Below, one piece after another: positions 14,137 to 47,973 of a stretch of 64,000 nt of DNA. Position 1 is the stretch's first letter. Every line of letters starts with the position of its first letter. The notes beneath the pieces were generated by a model. It saw nothing but the letters and a program-made list of their open reading frames with translations, searched no databases and was not told the origin of the DNA. The position numbers and the translations under genes were made by a program. This DNA is from Formosa sp. Hel1_31_208. Its GTDB lineage: Bacteria; Bacteroidota; Bacteroidia; Flavobacteriales; Flavobacteriaceae. Location of the stretch: assembly GCF_900104785.1 (NCBI RefSeq), contig NZ_LT629733.1, positions 590,501 to 654,500 on the forward strand, given 5' to 3'.

Positions 14137-14152
14137 TTTTAAGTAGGATAAA

Positions 14153-14160: not shown

Positions 14161-14168
14161 TATACGTT

Positions 14169-15213: not shown

Positions 15214-15221
15214 TACATTTG
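15214..15221 (+). promoter_or_regulatory. Promoter -7 element for the OmpH-like gene (TACATTTG)
   Basis: Exact TAnnTTTG match 23 bases before the ATG at 15245. A TTG at 15189-15191 (22 bases upstream) could be the -33 element. The rest of the 215-base gap before the gene shows no convincing feature. Confidence 0.7.
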
Positions 15222-15244
15222 CAAAAAATAAAGAACATATAAAA

Positions 15245-15766
15245 ATGAAAAAAGTAGTAATGGCATTTTTAGTAATGCTAATAATTGCATCTTGTCAGGA
15301 GCAGAAAAAAATAGCTTTCGTGAATAGAACAGAAGTAATCAATAAATATCAAGAGAAAATTGATATTGAAGATAAGTTTAAAGCACGTGAGGAGCGTTTC
15401 AATAAAAAATCCGATAGTATAGGAAAAGCCTTTCAACTAGAGTACCAACAATTTCAAGTTAGTGCAACGAAAATGTCTGCTCAAAAACAGCAGGAAGAAG
15501 GACAAGCATTTAACCAAAGAGGACAAATATTACAACAGCAGCTACAATTTGAACAACAACAATTGCAACAGGCGTATACTATTGAAATGGATTCTGTTAT
15601 TATGCACATGAAACATTTTGTAGAAGATTATGGAAAGAAAAATGGCTATGATTATATTTTTGGCACTAGCGAAGCGACTAATAATGTAATGTACGGTGGG
15701 GAGGCAAATGATATTTCAAATGATATTTTACAAGGCTTGAATGAAGCCTACAAATCGAAAGAGTAG
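15245..15766 (+). CDS. OmpH/Skp-family periplasmic chaperone-like lipoprotein
   Basis: A 173-residue exported protein. Residues 1-17 form a lipoprotein signal with lipobox IASC (Cys17), unlike classical Skp, which is soluble. The mature part starts KKIAFVNRTEVINKYQ, the typical OmpH first strand, and is followed by a long Gln/Lys-rich coiled coil (about residues 35-125, the tentacle helices) and the closing FVEDYGKKNGYDYIFGTSE segment. Skp-like proteins hold unfolded outer-membrane proteins in the periplasm. The lipid anchor suggests a membrane-tethered variant. Confidence 0.87.
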   Translation: MKKVVMAFLVMLIIASCQEQKKIAFVNRTEVINKYQEKIDIEDKFKAREERFNKKSDSIGKAFQLEYQQFQVSATKMSAQKQQEEGQAFNQRGQILQQQLQFEQQQLQQAYTIEMDSVIMHMKHFVEDYGKKNGYDYIFGTSEATNNVMYGGEANDISNDILQGLNEAYKSKE

Positions 15767-15794
15767 TAATTAGATCTACGAGATTTATAAATTA

Positions 15795-15825
15795 AAAACC
15801 GATTGTTTATCAATCGGTTTTTTTG
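15795..15825. terminator. Bidirectional intrinsic terminator (OmpH-like gene / holB)
   Basis: The 11-bp stem AAAACCGATTG / CAATCGGTTTT with loop TTTAT has T-runs on both strands. It overlaps the last codons of holB on the minus strand. Confidence 0.85.
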
Positions 15826-32071: not shown

Positions 32072-32858
32072 AAACTTAGTAATTGCAATTGAAGCCTCCT
32101 TAAAAGCAGGAGAAGTCATTATGCAAGTGTATGATACTGCTTTTGATGTGGAACATAAAGATGATAAATCACCTTTAACAGAAGCCGACAAAAGAGCGAA
32201 TGATGTTATTAATTCATTTCTGCGAGAAACGCCTACACCTATTATTAGTGAAGAGAATAAGCAAATTGATTATTCAATTCGCAAAGATTGGGACACCTGT
32301 TGGATAGTAGACCCTGTTGATGGAACAAAAGAATTTATCAAGCGAAATGGTGAGTTCACGGTTAATATTGCTTTAGTACAAAACGGTGTGCCACAATTAG
32401 GGGTTATCTATGTTCCAGCGACGACCACACTATATTTTTCGGATACACTAAAAAAACAAGCGTTTAAATCGGTATTATCAGCTCATAACACCTCAATAGA
32501 AGACGTGTTAAAATTGGCGAGTCCGCTTCAAACAAAAACAACCTCTAATGTTGTAGAAGTTGTTGGCAGTCGGTCTCATATGAGTCAGGAAACATTGAAC
32601 TTTGTAGACCATTTAAAATCGTCTGGAAAAGAGGTAACGATAGTGTCTAAAGGGAGCTCCCTTAAATTTTGTTTAGTTGCTGAAGGAAATGCAGATATAT
32701 ATCCACGATTTGCACCGACCATGGAATGGGATACAGCAGCTGGTCAAGCTATTTGCAGTGCTGTTGGTGTTGAGGTCATTTCTGAAGACACAAAACAACC
32801 GCTGTTATATAATAAAGAAAACCTGCTAAACCCTTGGTTTGTGGTTGCAAAGCACTAA
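32049..32858 (+). CDS. cysQ: 3'(2'),5'-bisphosphate nucleotidase (PAP phosphatase)
   Basis: A 269-residue inositol-monophosphatase-fold enzyme that hydrolyses PAP, the by-product of sulfotransferases, to AMP. Metal-binding motifs are DKSPLTEADKRAN, IISEEN, WIVDPVDGTKEFIKRNGEF and the C-terminal MEWDTAAGQAI. Within this locus it should relieve PAP inhibition of the sulfotransferase encoded at 45853. The ATG at 32049 lies inside fcl. Confidence 0.95.
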   Translation: MTGIELNKNLVIAIEASLKAGEVIMQVYDTAFDVEHKDDKSPLTEADKRANDVINSFLRETPTPIISEENKQIDYSIRKDWDTCWIVDPVDGTKEFIKRNGEFTVNIALVQNGVPQLGVIYVPATTTLYFSDTLKKQAFKSVLSAHNTSIEDVLKLASPLQTKTTSNVVEVVGSRSHMSQETLNFVDHLKSSGKEVTIVSKGSSLKFCLVAEGNADIYPRFAPTMEWDTAAGQAICSAVGVEVISEDTKQPLLYNKENLLNPWFVVAKH

Positions 32859-32864
32859 AAGACC

Positions 32865-33320
32865 ATGACTACTTATAAAACTGAGTCACATCTTAGAAGC
32901 CTTATTAAAGGTATATCATGGCGTGTTGTCGCAACTTCAGACACGATACTTGTGGTACTACTCGTTACTTGTTTGAGTGGTCATTGTAGTTTAGAGAATG
33001 CGATTAAAATTGGATCTATTGAGTTTGTTTTTAAATTTTTTGTTTACTATGTTCATGAAAGAGTGTGGCAGCTTATTTTAGTTAATAAGGCTGTTACGCA
33101 AAAACAAACGCTTCAAAAGACAACATCCTGGCGACTCATTGCAACGACTATGACATTCCTAATTTCGGGTTCAGTATTAAATGCTTTTGACGAAATAGCA
33201 TTATATATTGCACTTACAGAATTATTTACGAAATTCGCATTATATTACTTACACGAGAGACTTTGGTTAAAACTTCCACTAGGTAGAATTAGGCAATTTT
33301 TTTTCGGTAAAAAAAGATAA
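32865..33320 (+). CDS. DUF2061 tandem-repeat membrane protein
   Basis: A 151-residue inner-membrane protein made of two DUF2061 units. Each starts with a SWRxxATxxT motif (GISWRVVATSDT, TTSWRLIATTMT) and ends with YYVHERVW or YYLHERLW. Four transmembrane helices are expected. The family often sits in sulfate-activation clusters of marine Bacteroidota, and here it is between cysQ and cysC with gaps of six bases and one base. A role in sulfur or nucleotide handling at the membrane is inferred from context only. Confidence 0.88.
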   Translation: MTTYKTESHLRSLIKGISWRVVATSDTILVVLLVTCLSGHCSLENAIKIGSIEFVFKFFVYYVHERVWQLILVNKAVTQKQTLQKTTSWRLIATTMTFLISGSVLNAFDEIALYIALTELFTKFALYYLHERLWLKLPLGRIRQFFFGKKR

Positions 33321-33321
33321 C

Positions 33322-33924
33322 ATGTCCAAACATATTATACCCCATAACTATCACGTTTCTAAGTCAGATAGAATAACTGCTAATAATCATAATTCATTTT
33401 TAATTTGGTTTACAGGACTTTCTGGATCAGGGAAATCTACAATTGCTAATCTTGTAGAACGCGCATTATTTGAAAAAGGCATAAAAACCTATTCTTTAGA
33501 TGGGGATAACATAAGAAAGGGAATTAATAAAGACCTTTCATTTGCTCCTGAGGATAGAACTGAAAACATAAGGCGCATCGCTGAGGTTTCAAATTTGATG
33601 ATTGATGCTGGTATAGTTGTATTGGCCGCATTTGTATCACCTTATAAAAAAGATAGAGAGAACATTAGAACTATCGTTAAAGATGTTAACTTTGTTGAAA
33701 TTTATATTAATACGAGCATTGAAGAATGCGAACGTCGAGATGTAAAAGGCTTATATAAGAAGGCAAGAGCTGGTGAAATCAAAAATATGACTGGTATTTC
33801 TGCTCCTTATGAAGCCCCTGAACGTTCAGATATTGAGATAAAAACAGAAAACGAAACAATTGACGATTCCGTAAAAAGAATTGTAGATTATATAACACCA
33901 AAATTAAAACTCAACAATGAGTAA
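33322..33924 (+). CDS. cysC: Adenylylsulfate kinase (APS kinase)
   Basis: Makes PAPS from APS and ATP, 200 residues. The P-loop is in WFTGLSGSGKSTIAN, followed by SLDGDNIRKGINKDLSFAPEDRTENIRR and the lid region VKGLYKKARAGEIKNMTGISAPYE. The motifs are intact and the length normal. It overlaps cysD by eight bases. Confidence 0.97.
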   Translation: MSKHIIPHNYHVSKSDRITANNHNSFLIWFTGLSGSGKSTIANLVERALFEKGIKTYSLDGDNIRKGINKDLSFAPEDRTENIRRIAEVSNLMIDAGIVVLAAFVSPYKKDRENIRTIVKDVNFVEIYINTSIEECERRDVKGLYKKARAGEIKNMTGISAPYEAPERSDIEIKTENETIDDSVKRIVDYITPKLKLNNE

Positions 33925-34822
33925 GTATTATTTAAATTATTTAGACGAATTAGAGAGTGAAGCCATTTTTATCTTGCGTGAAGTCTGGGCACAATTTGAT
34001 AATCCTGTCATTTTGTTTTCAGGAGGTAAAGACTCAATACTCGTTACACATTTAGCTAAAAAAGCATTTTACCCAGCAACAATACCGTTTCCGTTAATGC
34101 ATGTGGACACAGGTCATAACTTTCCAGAGACCATCAAGTTTAGAGATGATATCATCAAAGAATTGGGCGTAGAACTCATTGTAGGCTCTGTTCAAGAGTC
34201 TATTGATGACGGGCGTGTCTCCGAAGAGAAAGGAAAAAATGCAACAAGAAACGCACTACAAATTACGACCTTGTTAGATGCCATTGAATCAAATAAAATT
34301 GATTGTGCCATTGGAGGAGGAAGACGAGACGAGGAAAAAGCAAGAGCTAAGGAACGCTTCTTTTCGCATCGCGATGATTTTGGACAATGGGATCCAAAAA
34401 ACCAACGGCCTGAACTTTGGAATATTTTCAATGGTAAACATTTTGAAGGCGAACACTTTAGAGCTTTTCCTATAAGTAACTGGACCGAAATGGATGTTTG
34501 GAATTATATTAAAAGAGAGAATATCGCTATTCCATCATTATACTTTGCTCATGAACGAGACGTCGTGTGGAGACAGGATAGCTGGATACCAAATTCTGAG
34601 TTTTTGGTGCTTGAAGAGCATGAAGAAATAGTAACTAAAATGATTCGCTTCCGAACACTAGGCGATATCACTATAACAGGAGGTATTGAATCTGATGCAG
34701 ATACTTTAGAAAAAATTGCTGACGAGGTATCTGGAATGAGGCAAACCGAAAGAGGAAACAGAAGTGATGACAAACGTTCTGAGTCAGCAATGGAAGACAG
34801 AAAACGTCAAGGATATTTTTAA
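33917..34822 (+). CDS. cysD: Sulfate adenylyltransferase subunit 2
   Basis: Catalytic subunit of ATP sulfurylase, forming APS and pyrophosphate, 301 residues. The PP-loop is ILFSGGKDSILVTHLAKKAF, followed by PLMHVDTGHNFPETI, GGGRRDEEKARAKER and the C-terminal KRQGYF. It works with CysN in the cytoplasm. It overlaps cysC, and cysN follows after 14 bases. Confidence 0.97.
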   Translation: MSKYYLNYLDELESEAIFILREVWAQFDNPVILFSGGKDSILVTHLAKKAFYPATIPFPLMHVDTGHNFPETIKFRDDIIKELGVELIVGSVQESIDDGRVSEEKGKNATRNALQITTLLDAIESNKIDCAIGGGRRDEEKARAKERFFSHRDDFGQWDPKNQRPELWNIFNGKHFEGEHFRAFPISNWTEMDVWNYIKRENIAIPSLYFAHERDVVWRQDSWIPNSEFLVLEEHEEIVTKMIRFRTLGDITITGGIESDADTLEKIADEVSGMRQTERGNRSDDKRSESAMEDRKRQGYF

Positions 34823-34836
34823 AAGACACATAGTTA

Positions 34837-36090
34837 ATGTTAGATAATAATCAATTATTACGATTTACAACTGCTGGTAGTGTAGACGACGGAAAAAGCA
34901 CCTTAATTGGTCGCTTATTGTATGATTCTAAATCTATTTTTGAGGATCAACTATTGGCAATAGAAAACACGAGTAAAAAGAAAGGCCATGATGGTGTGGA
35001 TTTAGCTCTTTTTACTGATGGTTTAAGAGACGAAAGAGAACAAGGCATCACAATTGATGTTGCTTACAGGTATTTTACAACACCTAAGCGTAAATTCATT
35101 ATTGCAGATACTCCAGGGCATATTCAATATACAAGAAATATGGTCACAGGAGCTTCAACAGCAAATGCTGCTATCATATTAGTAGATGCTAGACATGGTG
35201 TTATTGAACAAACAAAAAGACATTCTTTTATAGCGTCATTATTACAAATTCCTCATGTTATTGTCTGTATCAATAAAATGGATTTAGTAGAATATTCAGA
35301 AGTAGCCTATAATAAAGTTATTGATCAATTTGAGGAGTTTGCCTCAAAATTATTAGTTCATGACATACGTTTTATTCCTATTAGTGCCCTTAATGGAGAC
35401 AACGTAGTGAACCGTTCAGAAAACATGAATTGGTACCAAGGTGCTCCGCTATTGCACACTTTAGAAACCATGCATATAAGTAGTGATATCAACAAGGTTG
35501 ATGCTAGATTCCCAGTGCAAACGGTTTTGAGACCACAAAATGACAGTCATAGAGACTATAGAGGTTATGCAGGAAGAGTTGCAAGTGGTATTTTTAGAGT
35601 TGGTGATGATGTTACTGTAATGCCATCTGGATTCACGTCAAAAATAAAAACCATAGACACTTTAGATGCATCTTTAGAAGAAGCATATGCTCCAATGTCG
35701 GTTTCCTTAACCCTGGAAGATGACATTGATGTTAGTAGAGGAGATATGATTGTAAGGTCTAATAATAAGCCAGAACCAGTACAAGATATAGAAGTGATGT
35801 TATGCTGGCTTCATAATAACTCAGCAAAACCTAGAGCAAAGTATAGTATACGTCACACGAGTAATGAACAAAAGGCCATGATAAAAGAAGTGGTTTATAA
35901 AATAAATATTGAGACTTTAGATCGTAATACTATCGATAAAGATTTGTGTATGAATGATATTTCTAAAGTCAAAATAAGAACTACAAAACCACTAATGGTT
36001 GACTCTTACAGAGAGAACAGAACAACAGGAAGTATTATTCTTGTAGATGATGCAACCAATGAAACCGTTGCCGCTGGGATGATTGTATAA
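34837..36090 (+). CDS. cysN: Sulfate adenylyltransferase subunit 1 (GTPase)
   Basis: GTPase that drives APS synthesis by CysD, 417 residues. G motifs are GSVDDGKSTLIGRL, RGITIDVAY-like EQGITIDVAYRYF, DTPGHIQYTRNM and NKMDLVEY, with domains II and III of the translation-GTPase fold after residue 225. It is a stand-alone CysN, not a CysNC fusion, consistent with the separate cysC. With no PAPS reductase gene in the window, the cassette looks dedicated to sulfation. Confidence 0.97.
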   Translation: MLDNNQLLRFTTAGSVDDGKSTLIGRLLYDSKSIFEDQLLAIENTSKKKGHDGVDLALFTDGLRDEREQGITIDVAYRYFTTPKRKFIIADTPGHIQYTRNMVTGASTANAAIILVDARHGVIEQTKRHSFIASLLQIPHVIVCINKMDLVEYSEVAYNKVIDQFEEFASKLLVHDIRFIPISALNGDNVVNRSENMNWYQGAPLLHTLETMHISSDINKVDARFPVQTVLRPQNDSHRDYRGYAGRVASGIFRVGDDVTVMPSGFTSKIKTIDTLDASLEEAYAPMSVSLTLEDDIDVSRGDMIVRSNNKPEPVQDIEVMLCWLHNNSAKPRAKYSIRHTSNEQKAMIKEVVYKINIETLDRNTIDKDLCMNDISKVKIRTTKPLMVDSYRENRTTGSIILVDDATNETVAAGMIV

Positions 36091-36104: not shown

Positions 36105-36641
36105 ATGAAAAAAGCACTATGTATTATTTTAGTTGTTATTGCTTTTGCATGCAAGGACGACGCTAAGGTAGATGAACAAAAAAACCAGACATCAGTATCA
36201 GTTGCAGAAAAAGCCATTAAGGAATTAGAGGTTATTGTAAGTTTTAAAACTAATAAATCTGATGAGTTCAAATTAATGCTCAATAATGTTCCTGTAGATG
36301 AATTTCAAAGAAAGAACATACATGTTATAGAAAAGACAGAACCTACGACATCATTTGAACAAATTACTGCAAAATTTGGTAATAACAACTTATCAAATAA
36401 TTTTAATATTAACTTCGGAACTAAGGAATTAAAAGAAGTAGAAATTGTTTCAATCCAGATGACTTACGGCAAAAATTCGGTAAGTATTAAAGGCACAGAT
36501 TTGGAATCATATTTCAATATTAATAATTATATAAATTATGACGCTACCACAGGGGTATTAAAGACTCAAAAAGTTGGCGGTAAGCATTATCCAGCTATTA
36601 GTGCTAAAAGAATCGCAATAAACATTCTAAAAAAGGAATAG
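36105..36641 (+). CDS. Lipoprotein of unknown function (paralogue of the 43984 gene product)
   Basis: A 178-residue lipoprotein; the signal peptide has lipobox AFAC (Cys16). The mature part has a short linker and a predicted all-beta domain. Its order of features (LEVIVSF..., a strand containing NFNINFGTKELKEVEIVSI, then SVSIKGTDLESYFNINNY) runs parallel to the protein encoded at 43984 (LQVFFDA..., FYLRFDAANTINLEKIVLN, RIIIKDSAFFEYFKYN). I judge the two to be diverged paralogues. They bracket the phosphate module. No known family was recognised. Confidence 0.7.
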   Translation: MKKALCIILVVIAFACKDDAKVDEQKNQTSVSVAEKAIKELEVIVSFKTNKSDEFKLMLNNVPVDEFQRKNIHVIEKTEPTTSFEQITAKFGNNNLSNNFNINFGTKELKEVEIVSIQMTYGKNSVSIKGTDLESYFNINNYINYDATTGVLKTQKVGGKHYPAISAKRIAINILKKE

Positions 36642-36656
36642 TTCATTTAAGTGCAT

Positions 36657-37253
36657 ATGAGAACTAAAAGGTTTTTATTATTTTTAAATCTGTTGTTTAT
36701 TTTATCATGTAACTCAAATGTAGATTACTATCATTTACCAACATTTTCATCAAATAAACAGATAAATGCAATAGTAGAAATCCCTGCGGGAACAAATAAG
36801 AAATTTGAATATAATAAAACAACTCATACATTTGAAATAGACCAAAAAAACGGATTAGATCGAATAGTTCAGTTTTTGCCGTATATAGGGAACTATGGTT
36901 ATATACCCTCAACATATTCAGATCCTAAAAAAGGCGGTGATGGAGATGCATTAGATGTTTTAGTTTTATCAGAGAGTCTGCCAACAGGTTCTGTTGTTGA
37001 AATCATACCCATTGCGATGTTAAAATTAATTGATGACGGAGAATTGGATTATAAAATTATTGCAGTCCCTTTTAATAAAGCAGATCAAGTAATTAAGGCA
37101 ACTAATTACAAGCAGTTTGATGAAAAGCACCCTCAAATTAAAAAGATTATAGAGTTGTGGTTTTTAAATTATAACAAGGATGATGAAGCAAGAATTGATG
37201 GTTGGGCAAATGAGAAAGAGGCTATAAAGGAGATTAATTCTAATTTATTATGA
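36657..37253 (+). CDS. Family I inorganic pyrophosphatase with lipoprotein signal
   Basis: A 198-residue protein. The enzyme domain matches soluble family I PPases: VEIPAGTNKKFEYN, PYIGNYGYIPST and the metal-binding GGDGDALDVLVL with all three aspartates, then LKLIDDGELDYKIIAV. In contrast to ordinary PPases it begins with a signal peptide and lipobox ILSC (Cys16), so it is probably lipid-anchored outside the cytoplasm. The ATG at 36657 was chosen over a GTG two codons upstream because it gives a better signal peptide. ATP-sulfurylase pyrophosphate is cytoplasmic, so the exported location points to another substrate source. Confidence 0.88.
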   Translation: MRTKRFLLFLNLLFILSCNSNVDYYHLPTFSSNKQINAIVEIPAGTNKKFEYNKTTHTFEIDQKNGLDRIVQFLPYIGNYGYIPSTYSDPKKGGDGDALDVLVLSESLPTGSVVEIIPIAMLKLIDDGELDYKIIAVPFNKADQVIKATNYKQFDEKHPQIKKIIELWFLNYNKDDEARIDGWANEKEAIKEINSNLL

Positions 37254-38116
37254 AGTTAAGAATACTAGTAATAGCATTTGTTTGCTTGTTTGGTTGCTCT
37301 AAAACGGAAGGCGTTAAACATTCTTTTTTTGTTGCAGGACATACTTATGGAGATCCAAATAATAAAGGTAAGGACAAAGGGTTGTATCAGCCGTTCAAAG
37401 ATAAATTTGGATTTATAAATGAGCAAAAGAAAATTAAGTTTGGCGTACTGCTTGGAGATGTCGTTTGGAAACCTAATGCTTGGCCGGAAGCTCAAGAAGA
37501 CATATCGAAATTAAAAATGCCTATTTATATTGCTAGAGGGAATCATGATGGACCTTTAAAAGCGTTTGAATCAAAATTTGGAAAATCATACCAGAGTTTT
37601 ATACAAAATGACGCACTTTTTATTATTCTAGATCCGAATATTGATCAATGGAACATATCCAATGAACAATTAATTTTCTTAAAAAATAAGCTTCGAATAG
37701 AAGGTAAGAAAGTTAAAAATATATTTATTTTTACCCATCAAGTTCTGTGGTGGTCTAAAGAAAAATTTGCTAAGCCAAAACCAAACTCTATTCAAAATAG
37801 AGCGTCTAAAACAAATTTTTGGACGAAAATTGAACCACTATTAAGCAGCACAAATAAGCCTGTGTTTCTCTTTGCAGGAGATGTTGGTGCGTTTTCAAAA
37901 GAACATAGAAAAAAAGATCATATCACTGAGTATTCGTATTTTACAGAAGGAAACATAACATATATAACTTCTGGAATGGGAGGTGGAATAAGAGATAATT
38001 TTGTTATTGTTGATATACACAATAACGGTGAAGTTACTTTTAGACTAATACATTTAAACGGAGAAGATAAGTTTGGTTTAGGAAATCTTGAAGATTATAA
38101 TAACCCAAATAAATAA
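37250..38116 (+). CDS. Calcineurin-like metallophosphoesterase, lipoprotein
   Basis: A 288-residue lipoprotein (lipobox LFGC, Cys16). The metallophosphoesterase fold is indicated by LLGDVV, the invariant GNHD in YIARGNHDGP, FTHQVLWW and a late FAGDVGAFS. The first motif reads AGHTYGD, so the usual Asp of the DxH motif appears as Ala, and the last GHxH motif reads GDVG; this may be a variant metal site. It overlaps the pyrophosphatase gene by four bases. An exported phosphatase acting on the same phosphate pool is a reasonable inference. Confidence 0.82.
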   Translation: MKLRILVIAFVCLFGCSKTEGVKHSFFVAGHTYGDPNNKGKDKGLYQPFKDKFGFINEQKKIKFGVLLGDVVWKPNAWPEAQEDISKLKMPIYIARGNHDGPLKAFESKFGKSYQSFIQNDALFIILDPNIDQWNISNEQLIFLKNKLRIEGKKVKNIFIFTHQVLWWSKEKFAKPKPNSIQNRASKTNFWTKIEPLLSSTNKPVFLFAGDVGAFSKEHRKKDHITEYSYFTEGNITYITSGMGGGIRDNFVIVDIHNNGEVTFRLIHLNGEDKFGLGNLEDYNNPNK

Positions 38117-38129
38117 TACAACACTAACC

Positions 38130-40691
38130 ATGATGCTTAAGAGTTTAATAAAAAACCATTTATTAAAAGTTGTAATTTTAGTTCCATTATTACTATTAGT
38201 TGTGGCTTTTTTATTGAAATCGGATTTCCAATCTGAAGCAAAAGAGGCGAATAAATATTATAAAACACTGCCTTCAAAATACGTGGATGTAATCACAGAC
38301 ACTTCGAAAAATGATCCTATTTTCTTTTGTTCGATTAGAAAGGATAAAGGTTTGAGAGAATTAGTTATAATGAAGACATTTCCAACTAAATTCCAAGAAA
38401 AGGTTGATTTCTCAATACAATTATTTCCTAAAGACAAAAAATTAGCACCAAAAGATAAAGGGTTTATCACTCAACTGCTCGTTAATGATGCCACATTGTA
38501 CAATTATAATGGAAAAACTTATGGTGTTTTTAGAACAGCATTACCGTTAATCAATGTTGATAAAATAGTCATAAAAGAAAAAGGAGTAAACAAGAAACAG
38601 AAAACTTGGGAAAAGACCATAAAACAACCGTTTGAGATACCTACTGACATAGATTTAAAGACATGGATAGTAAATGGAAATCAAAGCAAGCAACCTACTA
38701 ACCCTTACAGTGACGTCTTTACTAAAGTTCTTGAATCTAATGATATTTCCACATTACCAAATACCTTTTCAATAGTAAATGATTCCCTCTATAAAGATAA
38801 GGTTGATTTAAATGAGTATGCCAAAAGCAAAAATCTAACAATTGGGATTATAAAGGATCCGAATGGTTTTTGGAATCATATAAATTCAAAAGACAAAGAA
38901 TTAATTAGTGATATTCAACTTATTGGAGACGATCAAAATGAAGCAAAACTATTATTATCGCGCTTTATTGATGGAGAAGAAAATCTAGATGGCCTATTTG
39001 CACTGGATAAATTATCTAAATTTTTAGCACTAGAACAACTTTTTTCTCAAAGATGCAGTCAAGATTTCCACGTAAAATATAACAAAGACACTAATTTATT
39101 AGAGCCTTTTTATGTGGAGTTTAAATGTTTGGGTTCAATGTCAAAATATGTAAGTAAGCCTAAAATAAAAGATTTTGGTTTTCTAGCGACCTATATTGAA
39201 GCCCTCAGAGAGATAAGTGAGTTAGATCTTTCAGAATACATTAAAACGATACGTCCAGAAATGGATGATTATTTAATAGTACATAATAGCTTTTACCCTC
39301 AAAGTATTTTTGATATTGATATATTAGAGATTAATCAAAGAATAATTAGAAAAAGCTTAAATCAAAATTCTTTAATTAAATCTGAACTCCTCAGTTTTAA
39401 AAAAGATGAATTGGTTGTTACCATCGAGAATTTAAGCAACTATCCTATCTTTATTAAAGAATTGAGTCATAATACAAAGAAAAACATAACAGCTATAGAT
39501 GGTCCCAAGCAACTACTTGGTGGCTCTAAAGACACACTTAAAATACGACTGCCAAGAAGTTTTGAAAATTTATTTGTGAGTAAGAAAAAAAAGATAGCCG
39601 AATTTATACTTTATAAACATATTAATGAACTTTTTCTAGGGTATTCTATTATTGGAATGAATGACATAGCATATACTAATATAATTCCTTATCAAGAGAA
39701 AGAAGTGGTTGCGGAAGATTTGTTTAGAAAAGAAGTAATGTTAGAGAATGATAAAAATATTAAGGTCGATAAACAAAAAAATATTATTTCATTTTCAAAA
39801 AAGAAAGTAACTATTGATTACCCCTTAATCATACCTTCTGGGTATATATTTAAGCCTCAACCAGGCACTCAAATAGATGTTGTTAGAGGAGGTAAAATGA
39901 TATCGTATTCACCGCTAATGTTTTTAGGAAACAAAAAAGAAGATATCAAAGTTTTTTCATCTGATAAAAAAGGACAGGGACTGATCGTGTTTAGCGATGG
40001 GACAGAGTCTCAATTAACATATGTTAAGTTTTTAGATTTAACCAACCCGAAACACGGAAATTGGAACGTCACAGGAGCCGTGACTTTTTACGAATCTCCA
40101 GTGGAAATGAATAATGTTATCATTGAAAATAATAGGTGTGAAGATGCGCTTAATATTGTAAGAACAACCTTTAGAATGCGATATTGTAGAATTTCAAACA
40201 CCCAATCAGATGCATTTGATGGCGATTTTGTAAAAGGAAATATAGTTGATTGTAATTTTGATAATTTAGGAAACGATGCTATTGATGTATCTGGCTCAGA
40301 TTTAAAAATTATTCGTGTTAATATAGAAAAGGCAGGGGACAAGGGTTTGAGTGCGGGTGAGGATAGTAAAATGATGGTGGAAAATGTACAGATATCAAAC
40401 AGTGAAATCGCAATAGCTGGTAAAGACCTTTCTACTGTTACGATTAAGAATTTAAAAGTTACTGATACTAAACTAGGATTTACAGCTTTTCAAAAGAAGC
40501 CAGAATTTGGTCCCTCCAATATTACGGCTAATGAAATTGTGATGAATGGCGTAGAAACAAAATATCTTATCGAAAGCTCATCATCTCTTATAGTTGATGG
40601 TAAGAAAATAGAAACAGCGCAAAACGTTAAAGACAGAATGTACGGTGTTGAGTTTGGTAGAAGCAGCGCAGAAACGAGAAACAGTCAATAA
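38130..40691 (+). CDS. Membrane-anchored protein with degenerate CotH-like domain and C-terminal beta-helix
   Basis: An 853-residue protein with a transmembrane anchor near residues 10-30 (LKVVILVPLLLLVVAFLL) and a large exported part. Residues about 269-338 resemble the CotH kinase encoded at 42158: a LLLSRFIDGEENLDGLFALDK-like segment, FLALEQLFS and LLEPFYVEF line up with LSKNLLEDLRKGRTTIDKVF, LALQNAILNLFG and KLEPIAFDG. The putative catalytic Asp position is Glu and the following Asn is Lys. Residues about 545-815 form repeated short strands (VIIENN, CRISNT, VDCNFDNLG, VQISNSE) typical of a right-handed parallel beta-helix. The start was set at 38130; earlier in-frame codons lie within the previous gene. 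Confidence 0.7.
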   Translation: MMLKSLIKNHLLKVVILVPLLLLVVAFLLKSDFQSEAKEANKYYKTLPSKYVDVITDTSKNDPIFFCSIRKDKGLRELVIMKTFPTKFQEKVDFSIQLFPKDKKLAPKDKGFITQLLVNDATLYNYNGKTYGVFRTALPLINVDKIVIKEKGVNKKQKTWEKTIKQPFEIPTDIDLKTWIVNGNQSKQPTNPYSDVFTKVLESNDISTLPNTFSIVNDSLYKDKVDLNEYAKSKNLTIGIIKDPNGFWNHINSKDKELISDIQLIGDDQNEAKLLLSRFIDGEENLDGLFALDKLSKFLALEQLFSQRCSQDFHVKYNKDTNLLEPFYVEFKCLGSMSKYVSKPKIKDFGFLATYIEALREISELDLSEYIKTIRPEMDDYLIVHNSFYPQSIFDIDILEINQRIIRKSLNQNSLIKSELLSFKKDELVVTIENLSNYPIFIKELSHNTKKNITAIDGPKQLLGGSKDTLKIRLPRSFENLFVSKKKKIAEFILYKHINELFLGYSIIGMNDIAYTNIIPYQEKEVVAEDLFRKEVMLENDKNIKVDKQKNIISFSKKKVTIDYPLIIPSGYIFKPQPGTQIDVVRGGKMISYSPLMFLGNKKEDIKVFSSDKKGQGLIVFSDGTESQLTYVKFLDLTNPKHGNWNVTGAVTFYESPVEMNNVIIENNRCEDALNIVRTTFRMRYCRISNTQSDAFDGDFVKGNIVDCNFDNLGNDAIDVSGSDLKIIRVNIEKAGDKGLSAGEDSKMMVENVQISNSEIAIAGKDLSTVTIKNLKVTDTKLGFTAFQKKPEFGPSNITANEIVMNGVETKYLIESSSSLIVDGKKIETAQNVKDRMYGVEFGRSSAETRNSQ

Positions 40692-40696
40692 AAACC

Positions 40697-41452
40697 ATGA
40701 AACAATCTTCCATTACTGACAGAGAAAGTCTTGCAGAGCAAGAAGGGTTATATTTGATTGATAAAAAGCATAATTATCGATTTGAAAGAAAGTTTACTGT
40801 TCCCAAAGACTTCAAATTAGATCATATTGAACGGTTCGTCAAAAATAATTCATTTTTGTTTCGAGAGGTTTTTCATGAACGACAGGTAAATAATATTTAT
40901 TTTGATACTGCTGCATATAACGATTATTTTGATAATGTATTAGGTGTTTCAGATAGAAAGAAAATAAGAATTCGATGGTATGGAAATACCTTTGGAGAAA
41001 TTAAAAAACCAGTTCTTGAAGTTAAAATTAAGAAAGGTTTAGTTGGCGACAAATGGTCTTATAAATTAAATCCATTTGTTTTAGACAATCAATTTACCAA
41101 TAGAACAATTCAAGCTGTATTTAAGCAATCTAATTTGCCATTACCAATATTAGAATCAACAAAAATGGTGTCTCCAACACTATTAAACTCTTACTCTAGA
41201 AAGTATTATCTATCTGCTGATAATAGATTTAGAATTACAATTGATTTTAATTTACTATATCATAAAATAGATAAACAGTTTAATAATTTTAATTTTGTAC
41301 CTAAAGACGACGACAATAAAATAATAGAATTAAAGTATGCTTTAAAAGACGACAACGACGCAAATAAAGTGTCTGCACAGTTTCCTTTTAGACTAAATAA
41401 GAACTCAAAATATGTAAATGGTGTGAATACCATAAAACAGTTTCCTCAGTAA
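40697..41452 (+). CDS. VTC-domain (polyphosphate polymerase-type) protein
   Basis: A 251-residue soluble protein with the triphosphate-tunnel fold of the yeast VTC4 catalytic domain. Basic and acidic tunnel motifs are in order: RFERKF (28-33), NNIYFDT (65-71), RKKIRIRWY (87-95), LEVKIKKG (107-114), SYSRKYY (165-171), RITIDFN (179-185) and IIELKYA (209-215). VTC proteins polymerise ATP gamma-phosphate into polyphosphate. There is no membrane segment, so it should act in the cytoplasm, probably with the adjacent DUF4956 membrane protein. The triad VTC-DUF4956-CotH occurs together in other bacteria. Confidence 0.9.
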   Translation: MKQSSITDRESLAEQEGLYLIDKKHNYRFERKFTVPKDFKLDHIERFVKNNSFLFREVFHERQVNNIYFDTAAYNDYFDNVLGVSDRKKIRIRWYGNTFGEIKKPVLEVKIKKGLVGDKWSYKLNPFVLDNQFTNRTIQAVFKQSNLPLPILESTKMVSPTLLNSYSRKYYLSADNRFRITIDFNLLYHKIDKQFNNFNFVPKDDDNKIIELKYALKDDNDANKVSAQFPFRLNKNSKYVNGVNTIKQFPQ

Positions 41453-41474
41453 TAATTTAATAGAATAAAACACA

Positions 41475-42152
41475 ATGCAAGAACAATCATTTTTAAACGA
41501 TATTGCCAATCAATTTGGTTCTGGAGAATCATCTATCATTGATTTTTTAATAAACATTTTCATTACCATAGTACTTTCATATATAATTGGTTTGATCTAT
41601 TCAAAATATGGAAACTCTTTATCTAATCGAAAAAAGTTAATTCAAACATTTGTACTTATAGCTGTAACCGTAATGCTTGTGATTTCGATTGTGAAATCAT
41701 CCTTAGCGCTATCATTAGGTTTAGTGGGTGCGTTGTCAATTGTAAGGTTTAGAACAGCGATTAAAGAACCAGAAGAGTTAGTATACTTTTTTGTTGCTAT
41801 TGCATTAGGACTTGGTATGGGGGCAAACCAACGTGTAGTCACTTTGGTTGGTGCGTTAGTTATTATTCTTTATATAATAATTCAAAATTATAACTCTGTG
41901 AAGAGCGCTGTACAGCAAAATTTAATTGTAACACTTTCTAATACATCTGAGCAAGCACTAGATGAAAACAAGATTCTTGAATTGTTACAAAAACACTGTT
42001 CAAGAATTGACCTAAGGCGTTTAGATGATGTAAACAACACGACAGAACTTTCTCTTAACGTTGAATTTAAAGACTTCAACAGTATTATAAATGCCAAAAA
42101 TGATCTTAAAGCAATAGGAGATATCCAGTTTAGTTTTATAGAAAACTACTAA
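41475..42152 (+). CDS. DUF4956-family membrane protein
   Basis: A 225-residue protein with about five hydrophobic segments (near residues 20-46, 54-73, 77-91, 102-116 and 120-137) and a cytoplasmic C-terminal alpha/beta domain (about 150-225). The conserved core is LGLVGALSIVRFRTAIKEPEELVYFF. The arrangement of membrane part plus small ACT-like domain is reminiscent of MgtC/YhiD-type proteins. It lies between the VTC and CotH genes (gaps of 22 and 5 bases). Its partnership with a polyphosphate polymerase suggests a transport or scaffold role, which is inference. Confidence 0.88.
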   Translation: MQEQSFLNDIANQFGSGESSIIDFLINIFITIVLSYIIGLIYSKYGNSLSNRKKLIQTFVLIAVTVMLVISIVKSSLALSLGLVGALSIVRFRTAIKEPEELVYFFVAIALGLGMGANQRVVTLVGALVIILYIIIQNYNSVKSAVQQNLIVTLSNTSEQALDENKILELLQKHCSRIDLRRLDDVNNTTELSLNVEFKDFNSIINAKNDLKAIGDIQFSFIENY

Positions 42153-42157
42153 AATAC

Positions 42158-43975
42158 ATGAGGCTCAAATCTTCAAATAAAAGAGGTTTTATTTTTCTAA
42201 CTAGTTTATTAGTAATGGTGGTCATTTTATTATCACTCAAACAACGCTATACTAAAAAACCAAGTAAATATGCATTAACCCCAGATTTTGAGCAAACAAC
42301 TACTTTAGATTTTATTCAAATAACGTTAAATGAAAAGTCGTTTAAAAAATTAAAGAAAAAAAGAGATAAAGCTTTAAGTGTTGGGGTATTAGAAACTAGC
42401 GATTCAGATTATGTCCCAGCAACAATAGCGTTCAACGGAAATGATTATAGAGCCGAAATAAGACTTAAAGGTGATTGGACAGATCATTTAGAAGGTGATA
42501 AATGGTCATTTAGAATAAAACTCAAAGATGATAAAACAATTCTTGGGATGCGAAAATTTTCAATACACCATCCAAGAACTCGAGGAAACATCAATGAGTG
42601 GTTATATCATAATGCCATTAAATCTGAGAATCTTATCGGATTAAGATATAACTTTATAGAAGGCTCCATTCATATAAAACTTGATAATGCTTCAGGCTAC
42701 GATAGTAAACTATTAGGGGTATATGCTATTGAAGAAACATTTGACAAAAGAACCATTGAAAGTAATCAGAGAAAAGAAAGTGTTATTTTAAAATTTTCTG
42801 AAAACTTTTGGTGGGATGAAGTTAAGAAATCTATTCAAGTAGCTGAACCTTCAGGCGCTAGGTGGAATAGGTTTATGAATCCTCAAAAAAACCTTTTAGA
42901 CAAACTTCAAATCGCTCCATTTTCTGAAGAAAAGGTTTTAATGGATTCAACAATGAATGGCTATTTTAAATTGAGTAAAAATCTGCTTGAAGATCTAAGA
43001 AAAGGAAGAACTACTATTGATAAGGTTTTCGATGTTAAAAAACTAGCACTGCAAAATGCAATCTTAAACTTGTTTGGTGCAACTCATGGTATTTATAGTA
43101 TCAATTTGCGTTTCTATTACAATCCAATTACCTCCAAATTAGAACCTATAGCGTTTGATGGAAATTCAGGAATCAAACTCCAGAAATACGCACATTTCCT
43201 CTTTCTTGATCAAGAAAAAGATTCTGTTTATTTAAAAGAATTAATAAAGGCCCTGCATAAAGTTTCCCAACCTAGTTATCTGGATGATTTAATTCAGGTC
43301 AATAAGGAAGACTTGAACTATTTTGATAAGGAATTAAAAAGAGAATTAAAAGGAAGATTGTATAGTATTGACAATTATAAATACAATCAAAACGTTATGC
43401 GTAATGAACTTATGAGGCTAGTAAAAAAATATAACCTGGATGCTAATCTCGTCATAGAACAAGACGATTCTAAAAAAACTGAATTAAGTATTCCTGAATT
43501 TAGCCGCTGGCAAAACAAATCGCTAGTATTGAATAGAAATAAAGCTATTTATGAGATCACAAGAAAGGATAATATAAATGCATCATATTTAAAAATTAAC
43601 AATCTTAATATTGATTTTGGAAAAGAATATACCGTTTCAATTGTGGCTAAAAAGGGAAACTCAGGAAGCCTACTTGGGTTAAGATTACAAGGTGTTTATC
43701 CTAATAGAGTGGATGCCGTATTTGATTTAAATAAAGGAGAAGTAGTAGGCTCAAAGAAACAAGGAACTTTCGAAAATGAAAAGGTGTCAATTACACCTAT
43801 TGGAAGCGGATGGTTTAAATGCACCCTTACAGCTAAAGTTAATGTAGATCAGCTTAACATCATTTTAGGGCCAACAGACAACTCTAAAGGAGCTTCAAAT
43901 TGGGAAGGACAAACCGCGACAATTCCAAGTATATATTTAGATTCTGATAAGATTTTAATCGAAGAGAGAAAATAG
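42158..43975 (+). CDS. CotH-family kinase with C-terminal beta-sandwich domain
   Basis: A 605-residue protein anchored by an N-terminal transmembrane segment (about residues 10-26). The CotH domain (about 50-430) shows RLKGDWTDHL, WSFRIKLKDDKTILGMRKFSIH, the KLLGVYAIEETFDK strand-loop, LALQNAILNLFGATHG and LEPIAFDGNSG with the putative metal-binding Asp334; the usual second Asp is Asn336. Spore-coat CotH proteins are atypical protein kinases. A C-terminal jelly-roll-like domain (about 470-605; YTVSIVAKKGNSGSLLGLRL, GSGWFKCTLTAKV) probably binds glycan or protein. The kinase domain probably lies outside the cytoplasm. Confidence 0.88.
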   Translation: MRLKSSNKRGFIFLTSLLVMVVILLSLKQRYTKKPSKYALTPDFEQTTTLDFIQITLNEKSFKKLKKKRDKALSVGVLETSDSDYVPATIAFNGNDYRAEIRLKGDWTDHLEGDKWSFRIKLKDDKTILGMRKFSIHHPRTRGNINEWLYHNAIKSENLIGLRYNFIEGSIHIKLDNASGYDSKLLGVYAIEETFDKRTIESNQRKESVILKFSENFWWDEVKKSIQVAEPSGARWNRFMNPQKNLLDKLQIAPFSEEKVLMDSTMNGYFKLSKNLLEDLRKGRTTIDKVFDVKKLALQNAILNLFGATHGIYSINLRFYYNPITSKLEPIAFDGNSGIKLQKYAHFLFLDQEKDSVYLKELIKALHKVSQPSYLDDLIQVNKEDLNYFDKELKRELKGRLYSIDNYKYNQNVMRNELMRLVKKYNLDANLVIEQDDSKKTELSIPEFSRWQNKSLVLNRNKAIYEITRKDNINASYLKINNLNIDFGKEYTVSIVAKKGNSGSLLGLRLQGVYPNRVDAVFDLNKGEVVGSKKQGTFENEKVSITPIGSGWFKCTLTAKVNVDQLNIILGPTDNSKGASNWEGQTATIPSIYLDSDKILIEERK

Positions 43976-43983
43976 TATTTATT

Positions 43984-44514
43984 ATGAAGAGGATAATTCG
44001 AATTTGTGTCGTAATAATTTCAATAGCGTATTCATGTAAAGAGGGAAAGCCTCTAAATGACGCGAAAGAAAACAATACGATAGTAACTGAAACGAATATA
44101 GAAAGCCAAAAGGATAAGTTGCAGGTGTTTTTTGACGCAATCATTAAAAATGACGCTCAAATTACTTTATATTATCAAGATGGAGAGGTACTTAAAACCA
44201 TTGCTGGTAATGCTGTAAAAGGAAAACCGTCAAAGACACAAAGAGTGAGTTTTGTTTTCCCCCAAAAAATAATTCCTAATGGATTTTATTTGCGATTTGA
44301 CGCCGCAAATACAATCAACTTAGAAAAAATAGTATTAAATATGAATGATGACAGAATTATTATAAAAGATTCTGCATTTTTTGAATATTTTAAATACAAT
44401 AAAACAACACTCAAAGTTTCTGAAAATCTTCTAACTCTAACTCAACCGGATACATTAAAAACTTCTGAAAGTTTAGTTAGTAGAATTACTAATAGATACT
44501 CAAAATATATGTAG
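43984..44514 (+). CDS. Lipoprotein of unknown function (paralogue of the 36105 gene product)
   Basis: A 176-residue lipoprotein with lipobox AYSC (Cys18). After a linker of about 30 residues comes a compact beta-rich domain (about 47-150) with alternating hydrophobic strands. Order and spacing of features match the lipoprotein encoded at 36105, so the pair flank the phosphate module. A short hairpin follows its stop. No database family was recognised; glycan or partner binding at the membrane is possible. Confidence 0.68.
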   Translation: MKRIIRICVVIISIAYSCKEGKPLNDAKENNTIVTETNIESQKDKLQVFFDAIIKNDAQITLYYQDGEVLKTIAGNAVKGKPSKTQRVSFVFPQKIIPNGFYLRFDAANTINLEKIVLNMNDDRIIIKDSAFFEYFKYNKTTLKVSENLLTLTQPDTLKTSESLVSRITNRYSKYM

Positions 44515-44540: not shown

Positions 44541-45842
44541 ATGTTAGAAAAAATAAGTAAAATTTTCCACGATAAAGATTATAGAGAAATACTATTTAAA
44601 AGCAGTCATTTTCTTGTTTTTCGATTGCTTGGGTTTTTAATTGCTTACGGTTTTTCATTTTTTGTTATCAAGAAGTACGGTGAAGAAGTGTATGGATATG
44701 TTGCTCTCGGCCTTACTCTTTTTTCTATTCTCGTTGTATTTGGTAAAATGGGTTTTGATATTCATTTAACTAAAAAGTTCTCAGCTCATAAAAATAAAGA
44801 CATTGGCTTTTCTTTTTATTACTTAAGTATTGCTTTGGCCTTTATTTTTTCGATTGCAATATCAGGGTTGATTTACTTTTTTGCTGAAGACATTTCTGTC
44901 AAATTTTTTAATAAGCCTGAATTTACTAAGTATTTACAGTGGACAGTGTTATCGGTACCTTTTTGGACGATTATTCTTATTAATTCAGGTGTTTTGAGAG
45001 GAGTGAGAAAAAACGGCCTCTTTTCTTTTATTAATTTCTTTTCGCGGTTTTTCGTGACACTCATTGTCATATTTTTCCTCGCTAGCCTTAGTCAAAAAGG
45101 TGGGTCATTAATAATGGAGAGCCATTTTTATGCGATTCTAATCATTTTTATGTTTTCTTGTCTAGTGATATTCAAACTTAAAAATCACAACTCGATTATA
45201 AAGACGGCTAAGAATGCCAAACAGTATGTTTTAGAGACTATTCCATTAATGTCATCCACATATTTTTATGTACTTCTTCTTTGGTCTGATAAAATTATTT
45301 TAGGTGTGTTTGAAACCGAAGTAAATATTGGGGTATATGATATTGTTACTAAAATTGCGGTTGTAATTACATTTACTTACGAGGCTATAAATTCGATTCT
45401 TGCACCTAAAATTTCTAATGCATTTTCTGCGAATGACATGGCTTTGCTGCAAAAAAATGTACGATTCTCTGTAAGAATGACGTTTTTTACTGGATTAATC
45501 ATTTTTATAGGCATCCTAATATTTCATGGTTTCGTTTTAGAATTTTTAGGTGAAGTTTATCTCTCAGGAGTTTACGCATTAATGGTTTTATGTGTAGGAA
45601 AAGTTTTAATTAGCTTATTTGGACCTGTAAGCGATATTTTACAAATGACAGGTCATCAAAAAGTATATAGTAGGATTATGTTTTTAACACTAATTATAAA
45701 TTTAGTTTTAAATTACATCCTTATTAGGACTATGGGTATTAATGGAGCAGCTATTGCAACTAGTTTAGCTTTTTTACTTATGTTTTTGTTGTCTTATATA
45801 TATATTAGAAGAGAATTAAAAATTAATTCATTTATTACATAA
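44541..45842 (+). CDS. wzx: Wzx-type oligosaccharide flippase
   Basis: A 433-residue polytopic protein of the MATE/polysaccharide-transporter superfamily with about 12 transmembrane helices. The N-terminal LVFRLLGFLIAYGFSFFVIKKYGEEVYGYVAL region is typical of the RfbX/Wzx family, as is the late MTGHQKVYSRIM segment before the last helices. It should flip undecaprenyl-linked repeat units to the periplasm. It is the first of the assembly genes after the phosphate module. Confidence 0.9.
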   Translation: MLEKISKIFHDKDYREILFKSSHFLVFRLLGFLIAYGFSFFVIKKYGEEVYGYVALGLTLFSILVVFGKMGFDIHLTKKFSAHKNKDIGFSFYYLSIALAFIFSIAISGLIYFFAEDISVKFFNKPEFTKYLQWTVLSVPFWTIILINSGVLRGVRKNGLFSFINFFSRFFVTLIVIFFLASLSQKGGSLIMESHFYAILIIFMFSCLVIFKLKNHNSIIKTAKNAKQYVLETIPLMSSTYFYVLLLWSDKIILGVFETEVNIGVYDIVTKIAVVITFTYEAINSILAPKISNAFSANDMALLQKNVRFSVRMTFFTGLIIFIGILIFHGFVLEFLGEVYLSGVYALMVLCVGKVLISLFGPVSDILQMTGHQKVYSRIMFLTLIINLVLNYILIRTMGINGAAIATSLAFLLMFLLSYIYIRRELKINSFIT

Positions 45843-45852
45843 AAGTTTTAGT

Positions 45853-46674
45853 ATGATTAAAATGATAAAAGGAAAGCTCGAACAAGCCACAAGGCTCTTA
45901 TTTGTTAATAGCTTGACTTTTTTAAATAAATCGATAGTTATAGTTGAATATCCAAAATCGGGAGGGTCTTGGTTAGGGCAATTGGTATCTAGTTATCTAG
46001 ATCTGCCGTTTCCAAGAAATAAGTTTCCTGTTTTGTCTAAATCTGTATTTCATAGCCATTATCAACCAAAGTATTTGATTCATAAGAATAAAAAGATTTT
46101 GTGGTTGGTAAGAGACGGTAGAGATGTGAGTGTCTCATTTTATTATCATCAATTAATTTGGAGCAACAAAAATAAATTAGACCCTAAAACAGTTACATAT
46201 ACAAGAAAGCAGCTTCCTTTTGAAGATTATGATGACATTTCTAGTAATTTACCTGAATATTTAGAGTATTCATTTACGCATATCCCTTCTAAAGCACATT
46301 ACTTTAATTTCCCTGGAAACTGGTCGAGTTATAATCAAAAGTGGTTAAAAGAATTTAATACGGATAATTCTAACATTTATATGCTTAGGTATGAAGATTT
46401 ACTCAGTAATACCGAAGAGACATTACGACGTTTACTTCAAGATTTTTTTGGTTTAGATGTCGATGAAGAAAAATTAAAAAAAGTAGTTCATAAATACTCG
46501 TTTGAAAATCAAACAAATAGGAGTAAAGGTGTCGAAGACACAAATAGTTTTTTACGTAAGGGCGTATCTGGAGATTGGAAAAATAAATTCAATGATAAGG
46601 CGAAACAAGTGTTTAAAACGCATGGAGGAGACATGCTAGTAAAACTTGGTTATGAAAAAGATTTAGACTGGTAA
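45853..46674 (+). CDS. PAPS-dependent sulfotransferase
   Basis: A 273-residue cytosolic-type sulfotransferase (Sulfotransfer_1 fold). The 5'-phosphosulfate loop is VEYPKSGGSWLGQL (about 31-44, compare YPKSGTTW). The 3'-phosphate site is VRDGRDVSVSFYYH (about 86-99), and the late KGVSGDWKNKF matches the RKGxxGDWK motif. It has no signal peptide, so it would sulfate a lipid-linked sugar or oligosaccharide on the cytoplasmic side before flipping. The PAPS supply genes lie 9 kb upstream in the same locus. The substrate sugar is unknown. Confidence 0.93.
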   Translation: MIKMIKGKLEQATRLLFVNSLTFLNKSIVIVEYPKSGGSWLGQLVSSYLDLPFPRNKFPVLSKSVFHSHYQPKYLIHKNKKILWLVRDGRDVSVSFYYHQLIWSNKNKLDPKTVTYTRKQLPFEDYDDISSNLPEYLEYSFTHIPSKAHYFNFPGNWSSYNQKWLKEFNTDNSNIYMLRYEDLLSNTEETLRRLLQDFFGLDVDEEKLKKVVHKYSFENQTNRSKGVEDTNSFLRKGVSGDWKNKFNDKAKQVFKTHGGDMLVKLGYEKDLDW

Positions 46675-46689
46675 CAAGGGAATTAAAGA

Positions 46690-47973
46690 ATGGATATGTA
46701 TACACTTATTGCGTTAGCTGTATTGATGCTTTTATTGACGGTATTGACAGCAAAATTATATAAGTACTTTTTATTAAGTCCAATACATATCTATTTAATT
46801 TTTAATTACTTAATAATCGTTTTAACAGTCTTATATTATTATTTTTATGAGGATAAGATTTCATTTTATAACGTCGATAAAGCCACCAATAGTGATTTTC
46901 TTAACATACTAAGATATTACATTGTAGCTAACATTTCTTTTCTTGCAGCAACGGTCATTTATTATGACTATTCAATAAAAAGCAACAAGCTAATTTTTAA
47001 TACTAAACTTGATTATACACTATTTAACAAATATGTATTACCCAAAAGGCTTTTAAACATTTCGATGCTTTTGGTACTAATTATATTTCTTTGTTATGCC
47101 TTTACTTATGGTAAAGGAATAATGTTTAGAGTAGATTATATTCCTGAATTTGAAAACAAATTCTTAATCTCCATAGCTAAAATACTTTCATTTCTAACAG
47201 TTATTTTATTGGGCCTCTTTTATTCGGATAATAAAACTAAAAGCTCTTTTGGTTTTGTAGTGGTTTTATTATTGAATATGAGCACCGGGTCTAGAGCTAC
47301 GTTTTTACTACTTTTAATTTATTTGTTAATTGTATTCCAAACATCTGGAAACACGAAAAAAAACAAAATTAGATTCTTTTTTCAGTTAGTTTTTGCTTTT
47401 ATATTCATGGCATATGTGTTGTCATTAAGAAAGTTAGCAGACCATGGTCTCATCCCATACATTGCCTCAATTTTTAGTGAGGATGAATCAGGAATAAGAG
47501 ATTCGATTGCTTTCAATACGTACTATACTTTTATTTTTGGTTTTTTTGCTACGATTAGGACTGTTAATGAAGCAGCCCGTGATTGGTATATTATTTTTGT
47601 TAGTTTAAACCCTTTACCTGGAAGTATGGTTGGTTGGTATAATTATGCGCCACTTTTAAGATTAAATGTATTTGCTCCATATACATTACATGGACAAGTA
47701 TTTAACATGGGTATGACGTTTACCTGTGCGTTTTTCTTTATCCTTGGTTTGATTTTTAGTTACTTCGAAAAAATTGTCAGAGCCCTTTTAATTAATAATA
47801 AAAGAGGGATGGCTTTAGTACTAGTATTGTTATTATCTTTGTTCCTGTTTTACAGCTATGAATATTATTTGAGATCTGCTTTTAGATATATATACTACGC
47901 ATATTTTGTTTTATTAATCTACCAAGCTAGTAGTTACTTTTTTAAACGTAAAAAAAATCAAGTTAAGAGCTAA
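46690..47973 (+). CDS. wzy: Wzy-like oligosaccharide repeat-unit polymerase
   Basis: A 427-residue polytopic membrane protein with about 11-12 predicted helices and a large periplasmic loop near residues 250-320. The helix pattern, the STGSRATFLLLLIYLL segment and the position between the flippase and glycosyltransferase genes fit an O-antigen polymerase (oligosaccharide repeat unit polymerase family). Wzy proteins have low sequence conservation, so the call rests on topology and context. Confidence 0.72.
   Translation: MDMYTLIALAVLMLLLTVLTAKLYKYFLLSPIHIYLIFNYLIIVLTVLYYYFYEDKISFYNVDKATNSDFLNILRYYIVANISFLAATVIYYDYSIKSNKLIFNTKLDYTLFNKYVLPKRLLNISMLLVLIIFLCYAFTYGKGIMFRVDYIPEFENKFLISIAKILSFLTVILLGLFYSDNKTKSSFGFVVVLLLNMSTGSRATFLLLLIYLLIVFQTSGNTKKNKIRFFFQLVFAFIFMAYVLSLRKLADHGLIPYIASIFSEDESGIRDSIAFNTYYTFIFGFFATIRTVNEAARDWYIIFVSLNPLPGSMVGWYNYAPLLRLNVFAPYTLHGQVFNMGMTFTCAFFFILGLIFSYFEKIVRALLINNKRGMALVLVLLLSLFLFYSYEYYLRSAFRYIYYAYFVLLIYQASSYFFKRKKNQVKS

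Follow-up and report, generated by a model that had tools for sequence, protein, structure and literature searches.

Gene content and recurrence of the locus

The genes described here lie in a 64,000-nucleotide stretch (the window) of the 3.10 Mb, single-contig genome of Formosa sp. Hel1_31_208 (NZ_LT629733.1, positions 590,501 to 654,500). They form a run of eight plus-strand genes, labelled A to H (36105..44514), of which the six from B to G constitute a real and recurring module: B, a lipoprotein of the family I inorganic pyrophosphatases (PPases; 36651..37253, with a possible alternative ATG start at 36657); C, an exported lipoprotein of the calcineurin-like metallophosphoesterase type (37250..38116); D, a protein with a degenerate half CotH domain and a C-terminal right-handed β-helix (38133..40691); E, a VTC-type (triphosphate tunnel) polyphosphate polymerase domain (40697..41452); F, a DUF4956 membrane protein (41475..42152); and G, a membrane-anchored protein with a predicted CotH-kinase-fold domain (residues 49-422) followed by a CBM-like β-sandwich (residues 434-605; 42158..43975). 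Hydropathy indicates a single N-terminal membrane helix in both D and G, none in E and several in F. The run is bounded by two small lipoproteins: A, an accessory protein of 178 residues with the lipobox ...IAFAC (36105..36641), and H (43984..44514).

A VTC search of 23 genomes of the genus (5 matches) and 299 of the family (20 matches) identified 22 matching genomes besides the host. We examined 20 neighbourhoods from the VTC-positive genomes (G024 and G285 were set aside; G- and L-numbers denote genomes and loci, respectively) and five loci from named contigs, among which L047 duplicates L027 and L048 duplicates L029. Sixteen full modules are distributed equally between two main layouts. In the split layout (the host, L026-L031 and L046) B, C or a divergent relative of it, D, E, F and G are separate genes, whereas in the fused layout (L032-L039) the CotH and β-helix regions are encoded by a single gene. 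B is present in 13 of the 16 modules: in all eight split loci and in five of the eight fused ones (it is missing from L036 and L037, and L039 is cut off by the end of its contig). All eight split loci encode a C-type protein (divergent in L031, and nearby on the opposite strand in L029), as do L033 and L038 among the fused loci, the L038 copy being without a Pfam match; divergent versions also occur in L042 and in the groundwater contig L050. Among 65 long loci, homologues of A are restricted to L028 and L030, where they occupy the same position between cysN and the PPase, and H has no homologue in any. Thus, of the proposal in an earlier note that all eight genes belong to one recurring system, the part concerning B to G stands, as these are found together in relatives, while A and H fall outside any recurring set and the eight genes as a single conserved unit are rejected.

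The module is immediately preceded by a plus-strand sulfation block (32049..36090) comprising a cysQ-like gene, a DUF2061 gene, cysC (APS kinase), cysD and cysN, and is followed on the same strand by a Wzx-like flippase, a sulfotransferase and a Wzy-like polymerase (44541..47973). As anticipated from the sequence of the window, the module is embedded beside sulfation and capsule genes, and in view of its flanking genes the label 'sulfated-capsule locus' is a fair one. The 20 flanking proteins scanned also include a GDP-mannose dehydratase upstream and, beyond the Wzy-like polymerase, a glycosyltransferase, a UDP-sugar dehydrogenase and a sugar transferase. A cys block adjoins 7 of the 16 full modules (six split, one fused). 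The DUF2061 membrane protein (32865-33320 in the window) recurs in each of the six distinct related cys blocks that were examined, in a divergent form in L027. In L026 the far end of this block holds a lipoprotein gene (1300-2220; a similar gene begins at 1755 in L027) whose product combines a DUF4296 domain, detected by Pfam in L026, with the same CBM-like domain as is present at the C-terminus of G.

The VTC-DUF4956 core

E matches the VTC profile (PF09359, 3.8e-25), is the only VTC copy detected in the host genome and shares 22 invariant columns with its relatives in an alignment of 23 sequences. The tunnel residues K32, R91 and R93 are kept; the earlier note had made the idea of a system depend on such conservation. 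K32 of E aligns with what we take to be K200 of yeast Vtc4. At positions which we place, by pattern and presumption, on the four glutamates of the TTM hydrolases, E has the basic residues R28 and K213 and the acidic Glu30; the C-terminal half of E did not align to Vtc4, and the C-terminal VTC profile gave nothing useful in PDB (a Vtc3 chain at E 0.6). R91 and R93 align with Vtc4 R264 and R266 (counted along the aligned Vtc4 chain), which are named in the accessible part of PMC9911596. According to the part available of PMC4641920, basic residues that lead the chain away, as opposed to the four glutamates, tell a polymerase from a TTM hydrolase. The host also encodes PPK1, and its ordinary intracellular polyphosphate therefore need not depend on E.

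F matches the DUF4956 profile (PF16316, 8.2e-24), again as the only copy detected in the genome, and has three basic residues, K74, R91 and R93, that are invariant across 23 aligned sequences; the channel of the yeast VTC complex is likewise lined by basic residues in the available account (PMC9911596). The structural model of F, with four to five helices and a ferredoxin/ACT-like C-terminal domain, is consistent with the MgtC/ACT-like designation that DUF4956 receives in the accessible text of PMC12345266, and its Pfam matches include no MgtC profile.

The association of the two families was surveyed in a phylum draw of 392 genomes (three family searches are taken as the same draw because they share handles), in which VTC was detected in 62 genomes, DUF4956 in 95 and Pfam CotH in 143. 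All 62 VTC genomes have DUF4956. It lies within 5 kb of 68 of the 70 VTC matches and never on the strand opposite to them; the exceptions are a 54-position fragment in G339 and the match in G678. The long loci include 45 VTC rows (43 distinct; the 61 other VTC-positive genomes of the phylum draw supply 20 of these), and in every row DUF4956 is encoded on the same strand within two open reading frames of VTC: as the next frame in 33, at a distance of one frame in 10 and of two frames in 2. In 14 control genomes both families were matched in the same three. The VTC-DUF4956 partnership is strong, and agrees with the earlier proposal of a polymerase with a membrane partner. Counting presence anywhere in the genome rather than adjacency, Pfam CotH accompanies VTC in 59 of the 62 genomes as against 84 of the other 330 (Fisher 1.8e-26, ancestry ignored). 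One of the three VTC genomes that count as CotH-negative is the host, in which the proteins of CotH fold have diverged beyond recognition by Pfam.

Among the genomes with DUF4956 and no recognised VTC, many are of family f24 and contain CotH as well; the searches may have missed a divergent partner there. In four distant loci a protein of 354-366 residues with a hydrophobic N-terminus adjoins VTC (L085 8324-9400, L086 10072-11148, L075 10176-11240 and L091 9825-10925), for which Pfam returned no match above its cut-off.

On another reading the module would serve as a buffer for pyrophosphate or ATP in the cytosol while sulfate and sugars are being activated and used: VTC would be primed by pyrophosphate from CysDN, and an MgtC-like DUF4956 would regulate phosphate metabolism instead of exporting. 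Beyond the possible MgtC/ACT-like nature of F, such a role would suit the adjacency of cysCDN to 7 of the 16 full modules and the priming of Vtc4 by pyrophosphate described in the accessible part of PMC9911596. We nevertheless hold it to be very improbable, as the other VTC loci had no cysC, cysD or cysN match in the stretches examined, both B and C are exported proteins, and the CotH partners are extracytoplasmic.

The CotH-fold proteins G and D

The CotH profile PF08757 has no match in G, nor any elsewhere in the host genome. Where Bacillus cereus CotH reads NFDGF...PWD, G reads THGIY...AFD. G has no counterpart of the catalytic aspartate, D228 of Bacillus subtilis CotH, whose change to glutamine inactivates the enzyme in the available account (PMC7821199). 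Its place is taken, exactly or nearly, by His310, which stands opposite the aspartate in two alignments (one of them weak, E 0.00066, the other with L088) and two residues away from it in two others (with L074 and L044). The histidine is kept in all 18 rows of an alignment of His-type proteins, the host included, from which the Asp-type L044, L074 and L088 are left out. G further keeps Asn316 and Asp334, the latter being lost in L041, L042 and L050. D retains only the second half of the CotH fold, the histidine being deleted in the L046 copy, and its β-helix has the conserved motifs DAFDGDF, GNDAIDVSGS and DKGLSAGE; a profile of D found no useful match in PDB. The expectation of CotH-type kinases is hence borne out for the predicted fold of G and not for the classical catalytic centre of either protein. 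In one fused protein, that of L036 (6458-9499), an ILEI domain precedes the other regions at the N-terminus (Pfam 2.4e-6).

These alterations raise the alternative that G and D are non-catalytic glycan-binding scaffolds, a pseudokinase and a β-helix, and that the polyphosphate synthesized and exported by E and F serves the acidic sulfated capsule as a matrix polymer or as a partner that binds cations, while the glycan is never phosphorylated. We regard this as doubtful. It would account for the histidine at or near the catalytic position in G and its aligned relatives, the loss of the kinase centre from D and the CBM-like domain of G; however, canonical Asp-type CotH proteins are encoded adjacent to or near VTC in L074, L080-L083 and L050, the last of which encodes both the Asp-type and the His-type, and the retention of Asn316 and Asp334 in G makes catalysis plausible for the family.

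The exported hydrolases B and C

B matches PF00719 (2.8e-35) and retains both the NYGYIP motif and GDGDALD, which holds the catalytic aspartates of family I pyrophosphatases; its N-terminus ends in ...LLFILSC, and the aligned copies share such a signal-like start ending in cysteine. At a threshold of E < 1e-39, B-like PPases occur in 23 of the 299 family genomes: in 9 of the 12 with a full module as against 14 of the 287 others (Fisher p 3.4e-9, ancestry ignored). In six genomes the copies are distinct and match less well (E about 1e-27 to 1e-31); they fell below the threshold and do not enter the count. In all nine PPase-positive full-module genomes the PPase lies inside the module, and the link between the two is real. 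A function of the PPase as a helper of sulfation was considered and rejected: the 14 examined stretches with lone PPases (L053-L066) have no cys matches, and modules without cys genes in the examined stretch (L029, L033, L034, L035, L038 and L046) keep it.

In a tree of 32 PPases, built without the duplicate loci L047 and L048 and the short copy of L065, the module label shows tighter clustering than in 499 of 500 shuffles. No tree among 200 bootstrap replicates can be explained by just one change of label; yet the well-supported branches force only one. PPase and module may have been joined once or repeatedly, the strong branches being compatible with one origin. Seven of the 14 lone PPases (L056-L061 and L063) share a common site, as judged by the sizes of the open reading frames, beside a large gene which, from its beginning in L056, we presume to be topA-like. 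At apparently the same site L034 (G226) has a VTC-CotH-DUF4956 cassette (8841-16758), which suggests insertion or loss at one site.

Calcineurin-like phosphoesterases (PF00149) are defined by the two-metal motif set DxH / GDxx / GNHD / H / GHxH. C fails this set: it keeps GDVV, GNHD and TH, and has lost the aspartate of DxH (motif I) and the GHxH motif (motif V, here GDVG), so that its metal site A looks lost. The claim that two exported hydrolases form part of the system accordingly fares unevenly: B accompanies 13 of the 16 modules and also occurs alone, and C has lost most of one metal site.

It is conceivable, then, that the PPase and phosphoesterase are phosphate-scavenging hitchhikers that only share the locus, the working unit being VTC-DUF4956-CotH. 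The lone PPases, their mixing with module copies in the tree and the absence of a PPase match from 20 VTC loci taken from the phylum sample speak for this reading; the strong enrichment of the PPase, which 9 of the 12 module genomes carry within the module itself, its retention in the six cys-less modules and the clustering of the module label (1 of 500 shuffles as low) make it unlikely.

Proposed mechanism

We favour the reading that B to G, attached here to a sulfated-capsule locus, are a recurring module for envelope phosphate, and give the scheme as a whole a probability of roughly 40%. E, the cytosolic polymerase, would build a phosphate chain from ATP, and F, its constant partner, would form or gate a passage through the membrane, by analogy with the yeast VTC complex, in which synthesis is coupled to translocation. 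On the far side of the membrane G, with its CBM-like domain, and D may deliver the exported chain, or phosphoryl groups from it, to the capsule glycan as it is made (the earlier note had allowed for a surface protein as acceptor as well), while B, and possibly C, would hydrolyse pyrophosphate or short phosphate by-products. As a hypothesis, such a mechanism is plausible; among the points in its favour is that the loss of DUF4956 or CotH from the corresponding trio of S. intermedius alters aggregation and the level of Pel (PMC12345266).

Several observations weigh against it. On the cytosolic side, E has Glu30 at the position of a Vtc4 threonine and is not Vtc4-like at every site, the model of F is modest (pLDDT 69.2) and has no significant Foldseek match (best E 0.016), and DUF4956 occurs without VTC in 33 of the 392 genomes. 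On the exported side are the conserved histidine in G, the missing kinase centre of D, the missing site-A metal ligands of C, and a PPase that 14 of the 287 family genomes lacking the full module also possess, module and lone copies being mixed in its tree with six label changes. Finally, for the VTC mutant of Streptococcus intermedius no change in aggregation or Pel is mentioned in the accessible part of PMC12345266. The earlier account of a kinase with trimming enzymes is weakened because the centres of G, D and C are altered; what survives of it is the recurrence of B to G, the tunnel residues and the VTC-DUF4956 pairing.

To our knowledge, no physiological role has been established for the VTC proteins of bacteria, and extracytoplasmic CotH-fold proteins have no obvious phosphoryl donor. 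A bolder version of the favoured scheme, in our estimation quite improbable, would be extracellular phosphotransfer without ATP: VTC and DUF4956 would push polyphosphate over the inner membrane, the His-type CotH-fold enzyme would use it, perhaps via a phosphohistidine, on the capsule glycan, and the exported PPase would pull the reaction by removing pyrophosphate. If true, this would explain where CotH-type kinases outside the cytoplasm obtain their phosphoryl groups. More generally, the constant company of DUF4956, the usual presence of CotH in VTC genomes and their union here in one operon make export-coupled polyphosphate synthesis and polyphosphate-driven glycan modification testable.

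Comparison with known systems

The core trio of VTC, DUF4956 and CotH is already published; the additional exported enzymes and the altered kinase centre look new. A literature search, with most subscription papers outside its reach, found no paper on the Flavobacteriaceae arrangement or on a His-type CotH.

In the yeast VTC complex (Vtc1/3/4) the cytosolic tunnel polymerase domain is shared with E, a likeness that for the host is known from sequence; here the domain is paired with a small membrane protein with conserved basic residues, and fills E (251 residues) by itself, with no SPX match. The DUF4956 profile matched no solved Vtc chain. In comparison to the CotH spore-coat kinases, G is below Pfam detection and has the histidine at or near the catalytic aspartate, a membrane anchor and the CBM-like domain. 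The NELoc-2 locus of Clostridium perfringens also has VTC and CotH genes with a glycosyltransferase; in the accessible part of its description (PMC2879425) two VTC copies lie beside proteins annotated as tubulin/FtsZ, and the extra genes of the Flavobacteriaceae are not named. This pair (222-226 residues, each beside a VTC) resembles DUF4956 in length and position, and its annotation may be wrong.

The closest system is the accessory trio of the Gram-positive pel loci, in which, in the available text of PMC7112168, cotH, a poly-phosphate polymerase, DUF4956 and DUF4832 genes lie beside the pel genes. As in the host, the three families are neighbours in a locus for a surface polysaccharide, and the CotH protein lies outside the membrane. 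In S. intermedius the trio genes were deleted singly: per the accessible part of PMC12345266, aggregation in artificial sputum medium fell by more than half in the mutants of DUF4956 and CotH, with Pel higher in the former and lower in the latter. The host differs in having a Wzx/Wzy-type sulfated-capsule locus in a member of the Bacteroidota, a His-type CotH-like protein with a CBM-like domain, and additional β-helix, PPase and phosphoesterase genes. None of the 20 flanking proteins scanned in the window has a Pel-type match (the loci of relatives were not searched for pel). As far as the accessible text of PMC12345266 goes, its authors failed to find the trio arrangement outside the Pel locus; the window locus bears on that published statement, and is a counter-example to the confinement of the trio to pel.

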